Origin: Rhodanobacter sp. B05
GTDB taxonomy: Bacteria; Pseudomonadota; Gammaproteobacteria; Xanthomonadales; Rhodanobacteraceae
Reading direction: 5' to 3'
Length of the DNA: 64,000 nt
NCBI RefSeq assembly: GCF_002001085.1
Contig: NZ_MUNU01000014.1
Coordinates: 1 to 64,000, forward strand
Each line of letters opens with the position of its first letter. Position 1 is the stretch's first letter. Below, piece by piece: positions 7,087 to 28,271 of the stretch. Below the pieces are notes generated by a model. It saw only the letters and a list, made by a program, of their open reading frames with translations. It searched no databases and was not told the origin of the DNA. Position numbers and translations under genes: made by a program.

Positions 7087-7163
7087 TGGTGCCCCCGATA
7101 CGATTCGAACGTACGACCTGTCCCTTAGGAGGGGACCGCTCTATCCAACTGAGCTACGAGGGC
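7087..7163 (-). tRNA. tRNA-Arg (anticodon CCU)
   Basis: A complete 77-nt tRNA on the minus strand including an encoded CCA. The acceptor stem GCCCTCG pairs with CGGGGGC, the discriminator is A, and CCA follows. D-loop GTAGCTCAGTTGGATAGAGC, anticodon loop with CTCCTAAG (anticodon CCU, reading AGG) and T-arm GTTCGAATC are all as expected. It decodes the rare AGG arginine codon. A rho-independent terminator follows at once. Confidence 0.96.
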
Positions 7164-24715: not shown

Positions 24716-24727
24716 GTTGTCGGACGC

Positions 24728-24762
24728 GTGGACAGCATGGCTGCAACGGCCATGCTGTCCAC
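24728..24762 (+). terminator. Hairpin terminator after the M16 peptidase
   Basis: Perfect 14-bp stem GTGGACAGCATGGC / GCCATGCTGTCCAC with a 7-base loop (TGCAACG). There is no T-run after it, so it may be a pausing or mRNA-stabilising element, not a strict rho-independent terminator. Confidence 0.65.
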
Positions 24763-24884
24763 GGCACCGCAGCTGTCATCGCCTCCGCGGGCGTGAAGGT
24801 CCGGATTCGCTGGTGGGGCGCCTGCGTTCATCCCCGGGACATCCGCTGGACGACAGACTTCGGCATTTCGCGCCCGGAGCGTCC

Positions 24885-26009
24885 GTGCATTTCGTCAATG
24901 CGTATCGCCGCGTGGCCGGTTCCCGGCCAGTCCCTGGATATGCACGATGGTGCGTGTTGCTGCTGCTATGCGCCAGCGCGTCGGTGCCTGGCAGCCCGAC
25001 ACATGACCGTCGCGACGGTTTGAAGATCGATGTGATCCGTGACCGCCTGACCCTGGCCATGACCGGCTACCCGCAGGTCTACCTGCATGGCGAAATCGAC
25101 GCCGACGCAGCGCAGCGCTTCCGCGGCATGCTCGACTCCGGGCGCATTTCCTTCGGCTCGGATATCTATCTCAATGCCGCGGGCGGGGATGCGGATGCCG
25201 GCATGGCGCTGGGGCGGATGTTTCGCGCGGCGGGCATGGCCACGCATCTGGGTACGCCGCGACTGCCGAAGCACGCCAGCGTGGCGGCGAAGACCGCCGT
25301 GTGCACGGACGCCTGCGTCTACGCCTATCTCGGTGGCCTGTATCGGTGGGCGCCCAGTGGCAGGGACCGCATCGGGTTCAGCACGCCGCCGGCAGGCGGA
25401 GCGACCGTTCCATCCGGCGTGTCTGCGTACCTCAAGGACATGGGCATCGACGCCGCTGCGCTGGCCGCGGCAGTGACGACGTCCAACGTCGGCCCCGCAT
25501 GGATGACTGCGGACCAGATGACGGCCCATAACCTGGCCAACAACGGCAAATTGCCGCTCACCGCGACCGCTCAGTTATCCGCGCCGATGCCCACCATCGA
25601 ACTGCGGCAGGTCGAGCGCAAGGGCACCCATCGCCTCACGATCCAGTGCAGCCCCGGCAAGACCATCGTGACCGCCTTCGACGAGGTCGGTGTCGTGCGC
25701 GCGAGGCAGGTCGCAGCGCGCGACGCGCGCTCCTACTTCCAGCTCGGTGACAAGCCGGTGCTGGACCAGGCCAGCGATGGTGCCGTCGTCGAGGGCAATG
25801 CCCTGGTGATCCGTCGTGCGTACCCGCCCGCCGATCTGGTGGATCTGGTGTCGGCATGGTCAGTGGGTGCCTGGGTCGACGGCCGCAGCAACGCGTTCCG
25901 CGACGGCTTCCGCATGCCAACCCACCTGGTGCACCAGCAGCTCAGCGATTATTTCTACGCCTGTTGGCGTGCCGCACCGTGGCCGCCGCGGCAGAAGAAG
26001 CCGGGCTGA
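24885..26009 (+). CDS. Secreted ClpP/crotonase-fold protein (COG3904-like), catalytic serine doubtful
   Basis: About 374 residues. The GTG start at 24885 gives a normal signal peptide (basic VNAYRRVAGSR, then CVLLLLCASASVPGS); the frame is open further upstream from a TTG at 24717, but that part is Arg/Pro-rich without features. The next ~200 residues resemble periplasmic ClpP-like proteins: YLHGEIDADAAQRFRGML, then IYLNAAGGDADAGMALGRMF (the 'SPGG' position), and CTDACVYAYLGGLYRW, where family members usually read xSACxxxFLGG with the nucleophile serine. Here Ser is replaced by Asp (T-D-A-C), so proteolysis is doubtful. The C-terminal ~120 residues are unassigned. Ends at a small terminator. 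Confidence 0.65.
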   Translation: MHFVNAYRRVAGSRPVPGYARWCVLLLLCASASVPGSPTHDRRDGLKIDVIRDRLTLAMTGYPQVYLHGEIDADAAQRFRGMLDSGRISFGSDIYLNAAGGDADAGMALGRMFRAAGMATHLGTPRLPKHASVAAKTAVCTDACVYAYLGGLYRWAPSGRDRIGFSTPPAGGATVPSGVSAYLKDMGIDAAALAAAVTTSNVGPAWMTADQMTAHNLANNGKLPLTATAQLSAPMPTIELRQVERKGTHRLTIQCSPGKTIVTAFDEVGVVRARQVAARDARSYFQLGDKPVLDQASDGAVVEGNALVIRRAYPPADLVDLVSAWSVGAWVDGRSNAFRDGFRMPTHLVHQQLSDYFYACWRAAPWPPRQKKPG

Positions 26010-26161: not shown

Positions 26162-26457
26162 CTAGGGATACTCTGATCCATTCTACGCAGGCGTCACCGT
26201 GACTGTCTGTCCGCAGGCCACAGGGCCGTTGGTGAAGGCAGACTGGCCGTCTGTCGAGACGGCGGACCGAAGGCCTGCGGACAGACAGTCATGGCCCCAA
26301 CACATTGAATTCAAAATGATGGGGTGATGTCCAGAAGGCGCGCAGGGTGCGCCGCGCAGCTTGGCAAGACGGCCAGTCTTCCCTGCGCCGCGCAACACAC
26401 CCTGCGCGCCTTCTGGACATCATGCCGCCTGCGTAGAATGGATCAGAGCATCCCTAG
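26162..26457. repeat. Cloverleaf-shaped nested inverted-repeat element (unclassified)
   Basis: A 296-bp structure with no plausible gene inside. The outer arms are 26162-26193 and 26426-26457: 32 bp, inverse complements with one mismatch, each ending in CTAG. Enclosed are three hairpins separated by only 1-6 bases. Hairpin 1 has a perfect 20-bp stem (26200-26219 with 26272-26291). Hairpin 2 is an imperfect stem around GAATTC (26295-26324). Hairpin 3 has a perfect 24-bp stem (26326-26349 with 26398-26421). The loop of hairpin 1 contains AGACTGGCCGTCT (26240-26252), and that of hairpin 3 its exact reverse complement AGACGGCCAGTCT (26367-26379). TGCGCCGCGCA occurs twice in loop 3. The right end supplies the stop codon of the phospholipase-D gene. 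Confidence 0.9.
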
Positions 26458-28022
26458 AGCAGGCTTTCCAGCGGCAGCAGCTTGAACATTTGTACCTCGA
26501 CCCGACGGCCGGTGGAGACGCCTGGTTCGTGGTCGTAGCTCACCGGTTTGCCATGATCGGTGGCCTGCCATTGTATCGCGCCACCGTGCGCCGAGCCGTC
26601 CGCCTTCAGCGTCACCCGGTAGGCATATTCTGGAAGCGTGGCGGTGTCGAAGAACTCGGTGACCGCGGCGGCCAGCGGCGGACAGTCGACGATGATGCCC
26701 ATCTCGGTGTTGAGCAATTTCGAGCGGTCGTCCATGTTCATCGAACCGATGAACACTTTTTGCCGATCCACCACGATGGCCTTGGCATGCAGGCTGACGC
26801 CTGACGAAGTGCCGCCGGAGGTGGCCGTTTGCGACGCGCCGCTGGCGGGTTGCAATTCGTACAGTTGCACGCCGCTTTCCAGCAGCGGACGGCGGTAGCG
26901 CGAATAGCTCGCGTACACCATGGGCTCGTCGCTGGAGGCGAGCGAGTTGGTCAGCACCTTGACCGTCACGCCGCGTTTGGCCAGCGCGTCGAGGTAGGCG
27001 GTGCCACGGTCGCCGGGAATGAAATAGGGCGAGATCAGCAGCAACTCGTGTTGCGCGGCGTCGGTCATGACCTTGATGTCCGGGCCGATGCGCAGCTGCG
27101 GCTGGTCGGTCCCGGCGTCGATTTTGGAGGGCTGGTCGGCCACCAGGGTAGCCGGCCCCCAGAACCAGTCGCCGGGGCGGTCGGCGGAAGCACCACCGGG
27201 CAGCTCGTCGAGCGTTGCCTGCGCATAGTCCGATTGCGCGAACGCGCGGGCGTCGTGCGCCAGCTCCACCCGCAGCTTCGCCAGATCGTAGTGGTCGGCA
27301 TGCTTGCCGTGGAAGGCCTTGACCGGGTAAGCCGCGTCGCAGTTCCAGTATTCGTCGAAGGCGTGTTCGGCCTGTTGCACCACCGGGCCGATCGCGATCA
27401 GGTCGAGGTCGCGGAAATTCGTGTTGTTGCCTGCATCGAAATAGGCGTTGCCGATATTGCGGCCGCCGACGATCGCCACGTTGCCATCGGCGATGAACGA
27501 CTTGTTGTGCATGCGCCGGTTGAGCCGGTGCGTGTCGAGCAGGAACTGGGTGGCCCTGGACGGCAGCGATGGATTCCTGGTGGCGAACGGGTTGAACAGG
27601 CGCACTTCGATGTTCGGATGGGTGTCCAGTGCATCGAACAGGTCGATCGCCTGGCTGGCATTGATGTCGTCCACCAGCAGGCGCACGCGCACGCCGCGGT
27701 CCGCCGCGGCCAGCAGCCGTTGCGCCATCAGCCGTCCGGTCGCGTCGTTCTCGAAGATGTAGTACTGCAGGTCGAGCGAATGCTGCGCATGGTCGGCCAG
27801 CGCCACGCGGCTCATCAGGGCATTCGTACTGCGCATCAGCAGGCGGAAGCCGGATTCGTCCTGATGTCGGTCCGCTTCGGCATGTACGTAGCGCGCGGCG
27901 GGCGTGCCAACGGTAGGTGGCAACGCCCTCGACGCCTGCTTGACCATGGGCGCCGGCGGCGAACAGGCCGTCAGTGCCACGGCAAGCAGCGCCGATCCGC
28001 CCATCTTGATGAAGTGCCGCAT
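26454..28022 (-). CDS. Phospholipase D-family lipoprotein (cardiolipin synthase-like)
   Basis: About 522 residues. The N-terminus is a lipoprotein signal (GGSALLAVALTAC, lipid-attachment Cys at residue 20), so the protein is membrane-anchored in the periplasm. Two HKD motifs of the PLD superfamily are present: HNKSFIADGNVAIVGGRN and HAKAIVVDRQKVFIGSMN, each followed by the GG/GS-N element. This layout resembles cardiolipin synthase C-type (YmdC/ClsC) enzymes, which transfer phosphatidyl groups between phospholipids; hydrolase activity is an alternative. ATG 28022 is preferred to GTG 28028 given the upstream AGGTGG. The final TAG comes from the end of the cloverleaf element, so the C-terminus may be slightly altered. 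Confidence 0.88.
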   Translation of the reverse strand: MRHFIKMGGSALLAVALTACSPPAPMVKQASRALPPTVGTPAARYVHAEADRHQDESGFRLLMRSTNALMSRVALADHAQHSLDLQYYIFENDATGRLMAQRLLAAADRGVRVRLLVDDINASQAIDLFDALDTHPNIEVRLFNPFATRNPSLPSRATQFLLDTHRLNRRMHNKSFIADGNVAIVGGRNIGNAYFDAGNNTNFRDLDLIAIGPVVQQAEHAFDEYWNCDAAYPVKAFHGKHADHYDLAKLRVELAHDARAFAQSDYAQATLDELPGGASADRPGDWFWGPATLVADQPSKIDAGTDQPQLRIGPDIKVMTDAAQHELLLISPYFIPGDRGTAYLDALAKRGVTVKVLTNSLASSDEPMVYASYSRYRRPLLESGVQLYELQPASGASQTATSGGTSSGVSLHAKAIVVDRQKVFIGSMNMDDRSKLLNTEMGIIVDCPPLAAAVTEFFDTATLPEYAYRVTLKADGSAHGGAIQWQATDHGKPVSYDHEPGVSTGRRVEVQMFKLLPLESLL

Positions 28023-28271
28023 ATCCACCTGCCGTTTGCGCCGAGTACCAGAAGTTCGCGGCTGTCACCCTCTACAGCAGGCGCACTTTGCGAGGTGGGT
28101 CGTGAATTCCGCGCGACTGCGCCGGAAGGATGTTTCGGGCTCGGCCGGGTAGAACAGACAAGCTGCCCTGAGCCGGATATTTCCAGGATCGCTATCGGCA
28201 AACGGTCTGGGTCGTTTGCACCTACGCCCCCTCCGCTGCGCTATCCTCGCAGGAACTTTCGGGGGAAAGGG

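Follow-up and report, generated by a model that had tools for sequence, protein, structure and literature searches.

What is the large nested palindrome that occupies 296 bases of a 64,000-nucleotide stretch of the Rhodanobacter sp. B05 genome (hereafter the window), and what keeps its arms paired? A first-pass annotation had described three hairpins enclosed by a long outer stem, and re-reading together with a script check reproduced this cloverleaf. The two outer arms, 26162-26193 and 26426-26457, are complementary apart from a single A opposite C, with 31 of 32 positions paired. The basal stem of hairpin 1 is perfect over 20 bp (26200-26219 with 26272-26291). That of hairpin 3 is perfect over 24 bp (26326-26349 with 26398-26421), or 25 counting the next T-A pair. 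Hairpin 2 is closed at its base by CCCC/GGGG, and the tip of hairpin 3 is the exact reverse complement of that of hairpin 1 (Table 1). Folded as DNA, the structure has a predicted energy of -131.7 kcal/mol, compared with -57.8 (sd 4.0) in 100 shuffles (z -18.7). The CTAG at either extremity is most simply taken for a duplicated target site, which leaves 26166-26453 (288 bp) as the element proper, with terminal repeats of 28 bp. It holds no ORF of 100 aa or more and, at 288 bp, is too short for a transposase. One sigma-70-like promoter match, by consensus only, is found in the element stretch where 0.1 would be expected; there is none in copy L026.

Table 1. Features of the element and its immediate context in the window.
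Feature	Position	Strand	Basis or remark
Left target-site duplication, CTAG	26162..26165	.	CTAG/TTAA on both sides in better-preserved copies
Left terminal inverted repeat, outer arm, type A	26166..26193	+	Like the ends of IS5-family element L056
Putative sigma-70-like promoter, outward through left arm	26180..26209	-	Consensus match only
Hairpin 1 (basal stem of 20 bp, perfect; 26240-26252, tip AGACTGGCCGTCT)	26200..26291	+	Fold, copy comparison
Hairpin 2, short CCCC/GGGG stem around GAATTC	26295..26324	+	Sequence, fold
Hairpin 3 (basal stem of 25 bp, perfect; 26367-26379, tip AGACGGCCAGTCT)	26325..26422	+	Fold, copy comparison
Right terminal inverted repeat, outer arm, type A	26426..26453	-	Sequence, script check
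Right target-site duplication, CTAG, including the TAG stop of the minus-strand neighbour	26454..26457	.	
Phospholipase-D-like gene, ending in the target duplication	26454..28028	-	Context, outside the element

The structure is not unique to this locus. The 19 contigs of the same genome carry six full-length copies, the window's included, plus shortened remnants. One copy on another contig is 98% identical to that of the window, which points to recent movement; four others are 74-78% identical. In a sample of 60 genomes, 16 had a match: the genome itself and 15 of 35 from the same genus, one of which (G014) rests on just 24 bases. None of the 24 genomes from the rest of the order matched. Within the family, 61 of 147 genomes, belonging to 17 of 26 genera, gave matches (own included), some of them weak and partial; copy numbers per genome are lower bounds there, five candidates having been scored in each. 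The earlier proposal of a mobile palindromic element is thus borne out by dispersed copies in the genome and the family. Because the matches extend to 17 of 26 sampled genera, a recent origin of the structure, which the first-pass annotation had offered as one reason for the perfect stems, is unsupported. A pattern scan of the GTDB set returned 74 stretches. Among these, 53 come from Rhodanobacter, Dyella, Frateuria or Rhodanobacteraceae/Lysobacterales (several are partial), and 21 come from other bacteria and archaea, with surroundings judged unlike the element by ends and fold energies. Residence on a plasmid or phage was rejected, as neither collection gave a match. A description of the element was not found in the literature searched, among the matches listed, most subscription journals lying outside its coverage.

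For comparison of the copies, 117 distinct full-length ones were picked by profile (at least 85% of the model and at least 60 bits), so degenerate copies are under-represented. The predicted fold has three branches inside the outer stem in 111 of them, two branches in 5 and four in 1. These predictions show one cloverleaf conserved across the copies of the family. In the 33 copies from the window's genus, both sides have changed at 46 of 93 consensus pairs. There, 98.0% of cells are paired, against 86.2% with shuffled partners and 33-41% once the partner is slid by 1-3 columns. Across all 117 copies, at least two Watson-Crick types occur at 25 of 34 pairs of hairpin 1 and 17 of 28 pairs of hairpin 3. 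All four Watson-Crick pairs, each in at least two copies, are seen at 7 of 27 outer pairs and 6 of 34 pairs of hairpin 1. A chance juxtaposition of unrelated palindromes, expected to leave neither further copies nor covariation, carries no weight here: both were found, and 111 of the 117 copies have one predicted layout.

The complementary tips had been read as possible kissing loops or as a possible trace of an inverted duplication. Loop pairs able to pair number 76 of 106, against a shuffled mean of 68 and maximum of 76, and this lends little support to kissing. Hairpin 1 and the reversed hairpin 3 have a common tip, the 13-base tips being identical in 51 of 117 copies (shuffled mean 33, maximum 46). 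Support for an inverted duplication is confined to the tips.

How does the element move? Two outer-arm types, A (GGATGCYCTGATC...) and B (GGCAACGCTGATCAAG...), occur on the same body, and the window copy has type A on both sides. The best-preserved copies are flanked by CTAG/CTAG or TTAA/TTAA, and L110 by CTAA/CTAA, in line with the early reading of the terminal CTAG as a target duplication. Many copies have unequal or decayed flanks; L145 has TTAG on one side and CTAA on the other. A 1.19-kb IS5-family element in the sister genome G003 (L056) has ends TAAGGATGCYCTGATCTA that match type A copies L004 and L005 over 17-18 bases, a stretch from which the window copy differs at one or two bases. 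Type A ends thus have terminal repeats in common with an autonomous IS5-family element. The protein of L056 scores 343 bits against NF033581 (IS5; cut-off 140), with the DDE domain present. The flanks of L056 are themselves unequal (CTAA and TTAG); neither these nor those of L145 are predicted by a clean 4-bp duplication. Two further IS5 elements, from G012 (same genus) and G038 (another family), carry the non-palindromic duplications CTAA/CTAA and TTAG/TTAG, evidence in favour of a length of four bases. PMC10359306 reports the IS5 target duplication as YTAR.

The likeness to IS5 elements concerns the terminal repeat over 17-18 bases, the YTAR duplication and the host lineage. In contrast, the element has no transposase gene, and its body is unlike that of the insertion sequences. 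Terminal repeats were sought in seven IS5 hits and seen in four (L180, L181, L185, L186); the IS5 elements examined have only short ends in common. By eye, the likeness stops at the terminal repeats, and an internal-deletion derivative of an insertion sequence was rejected. No insertion sequence with type B ends was found in the 147 genomes with one exact pattern, which returned MITE-sized pairs and single ends only. In the 19 contigs of the B05 genome, the search for an intact partner transposase gave only a 135-base match of 57% identity.

The search for empty sites, suggested at the outset, found spanning counterparts for at least 6 of 14 insertions tested (L003, L006, L009, L012, L013, L037). 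Two are clean: L012 has a single TTAA, and L009 a single CAAG with 94% identical flanks. The other four show diverged bases or small gaps at the junction. Further matches also span the junctions of L002, L010 and L024. For the window's own insertion, no empty allele is among the matches listed. Its IS5-like ends, YTAR duplication, dispersed copies and empty sites identify the element as an IS5-type MITE whose body, built of nested palindromes, is unusually elaborate. It probably borrows the transposase of another element.

REP and REPIN sequences are short palindromes without terminal repeats or target duplication, and are linked to a RAYT transposase. The first-pass annotation had placed the structure near this class, and repeated intergenic palindromes in a gammaproteobacterium do recall it. 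Movement by a REP-associated tyrosine transposase is nevertheless highly improbable for an element whose terminal repeats measure 28 bp, whose target duplication is 4 bp long and whose ends resemble those of a DDE-type IS5 element. We rejected a REP-type assignment because of the terminal repeats and the YTAR duplication.

According to the review PMC2229807, bacterial MITEs measure about 100-200 bp and have long stem loops. Among them, the Correia/NEMIS elements of Neisseria are likewise small, with terminal repeats and strongly paired transcripts; their duplication is TA, whereas the element described here has 288 bp, a four-way junction and a YTAR duplication. The Caulobacter CIR repeats, as presented in the same review, are also small intergenic sequences with multiple hairpin arms. 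They consist of two arms and a linker and are MITE-like only in part; unlike them, the present element has an outer stem around three hairpins and a target duplication.

Another close counterpart is a 270-bp MITE of G045, a genome from another family of the same order. It has IS5-like ends TAGGGAAGCTCTGATCAA and an outer stem around two large hairpins, but hairpin 2 is nearly absent and the interior is only doubtfully related. With an interior-only profile, all 15 copies match at the same place and strand, the best E being 0.011; two of the 15 score no better than the best of four hits among 300 shuffled controls. Besides the query, 14 full copies were analysed, with identities to it of 87-96%. 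The G045 stretches (L068-L070, L328-L347) represent a recent burst of this MITE, with enclosed hairpins and ends TAGGGAAGCTCTGATCAA. In some of its copies the middle differs or is longer, as in C27 (400 bp). In another genome (G048), a 159-bp element (L073:1496-1654) has ends like GGAAGGTCTGATCAA, the left one with mismatches, and a row of hairpins, not a cloverleaf.

Where does the element insert? None of the 117 copies lies inside a called gene, the calls coming from a custom codon-usage script trained on the window and not from an annotation. A neighbour's stop codon falls exactly in the duplication in 26 of the 117, the window's phospholipase-D-like gene among them. Of 52 YTAR sites in the window, only 5 lie within called genes and 6 at stop codons, so that target choice accounts for much of this placement. 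Copies lie a median of 2 bases from a neighbour's 3' end and 45 bases from a 5' end, with a start codon within 60 bases in 78 of 126 five-prime flanks. Orientation relative to genes has no clear bias among the 110 copies flanked by called genes left and right (tandem 37 and 27 in the two directions, divergent 31, convergent 15). At copy L024, both convergent neighbours terminate in the duplicated TTAA. To the left of the window copy, the called ORF 24717-26009 (+) has no Pfam match at E 0.001.

The copies are mosaics. Hairpin 1 of the window copy, which has type A arms, is 76-85% identical to that of 15 type B copies and 59-73% identical to that of 15 other type A copies, the sisters L002 and L009 being left out. 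A simultaneous swap of both arms would be easiest if one arm served as template for the other. Two reduced forms were also seen. A 116-bp derivative (G000:C13:359429-359544; L043:1977-2092) has intact type A arms around a shortened interior, and an arm-only remnant (G000:C11:458476-458506; L044) consists of a 31-base match to the outer arms on both strands.

What, then, keeps the arms complementary? On 57 short terminal branches, changes from one Watson-Crick pair to another number 24 in the outer arms, 9 in hairpin 1 and 8 in hairpin 3; if the two sides mutated independently, 0.64, 0.81 and 0.66 would be expected. One-sided breaks on the same branches number 24, 26 and 33, respectively. Four of the 24 outer double changes are at the target-site pair 5/302. 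Over the full set of terminal branches, the outer arms of 66 of the 117 copies have undergone 127 double changes, 11 of these at the target-site pair. Paired changes far exceed independent mutation. Among the 127, 45 are transversions, which involve no G-U step en route. Adjacent double changes are clustered only at the border of significance (14 against 8.7, p 0.05). Double changes occur even in the CTGATC core that the element has in common with the insertion sequence ends (for example L132, L147, L110 and L083), and one-copy double changes are also found in the G045 burst.

A second kind of event would be an inversion in place. L029 and L020, from two genomes of the genus, occupy the same insertion site to the base, with matching flanks left and right as far as the duplication, and the element is reversed; two independent insertions into one site are a possible alternative to a flip. 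A second pair, L102/L078, is a probable flip. Among the other site pairs, five keep one orientation, and L314/L257 and L025/L273 are different insertions. Template switching between inverted repeats is described in PMC8604942 as homogenising the arms and inverting the spacer; PMC7202029 deals with template-switch mutations at an E. coli quasipalindrome. The paired changes and the apparent in-place flip fit template switching between the inverted arms as the mechanism.

Selection for pairing could also yield double changes, and is a live alternative to template switching. A palindromic DNA shape, as a cruciform or as single-strand hairpins, could be bound by the transposase or a host protein and kept on that account. 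The arms are indeed terminal repeats that form a palindrome, and Watson-Crick pairs make up 96% of cells in both the outer arms and hairpin 3. We nevertheless consider such selection unlikely as the main cause, as the double changes strike the core shared with the insertion sequence ends, many are transversions, and the IS5 elements read have only short ends in common.

The mispairs offer a view of the strand on which a constraint might act. In the outer arms, G-U and A-C mispair events are balanced (38 and 32, p 0.55), as expected for DNA, and the early suggestion that the perfect palindrome reflects the DNA level stands for these arms. Hairpin 1 differs: read on the plus strand, it has 90 G-U against 27 A-C events (p 4e-9), and 20 against 3 columns (p 5e-4). 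Its G-U cell count owes much to three columns, in which 39, 26 and 45 of 58 copies have G-U. Hairpin 3 leans the other way by events (24 G-U against 52 A-C, p 0.002), with 8 against 12 columns (p 0.5). These p-values are optimistic, because events counted on a tree depend in part on one another when the elements are mosaics. The preference in hairpin 1 is not predicted by template switching alone. There may thus be an extra single-strand constraint on this hairpin, as RNA or single-stranded DNA, and its strong preference for G-U over A-C makes a single-strand role possible. Events in Rhodanobacteraceae suggested a two-strand model, with hairpin 1 read on the plus and hairpin 3 on the minus strand; we do not claim it, because the G045 element has a one-strand G-U excess in both hairpins.

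One could go further and regard the cloverleaf as a structured noncoding RNA or a folded single-stranded DNA whose fold is selected, the IS5-type ends merely spreading it. The retention of the predicted fold in 111 of 117 copies and the G-U excess of hairpin 1 would agree with this, and the start codons close to many five-prime flanks make read-through transcription plausible. Against it stand the balanced mispairs of the outer arms, the lean of hairpin 3 to A-C (not significant by columns), the lack of a clear orientation bias and the presence of the same body on two different outer-arm types. With Rfam 15 at gathering scores, the window yields a single match, a tRNA (7090-7163), and a known RNA family was rejected for the element. 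An intrinsic terminator was likewise rejected, with no terminator-like match in the two stretches scanned. Overall, we regard a selected RNA or single-stranded DNA fold as doubtful. More speculatively, the element could be a structured nucleic acid that is mobile throughout the family. Hairpin 1 of the plus strand would be selected as RNA or single-stranded DNA and act on neighbouring genes or on the element's own transposition, and an outer stem copied from arm to arm would have let the body change its transposase partner, both ends at once. We hold this extended version, too, to be improbable.

The reading that we prefer, with considerable confidence, is that of an IS5-group MITE moved in trans by an IS5-type transposase, with palindromes kept mainly by template switching. 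A transposase made elsewhere would bind the two outer arms, cut the element out and insert it at YTAR. Insertion would be close to harmless, because YTAR sites in the GC-rich window lie almost only between genes or at stop codons. During replication, a strand would fold back so that one arm is copied from the other. Such template switching would change both sides of an arm pair together and could flip the interior in place.

More than 100 copies of a single palindrome occur naturally, and for some an empty counterpart is known, so that arm-to-arm copying and in-place flipping become measurable in bacteria. The element also carries a warning: covariation is commonly read as a sign of functional RNA, yet it may originate at the DNA level. 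The outer arms are a case in point, covarying strongly without a G-U preference, next to a hairpin 1 that has one.
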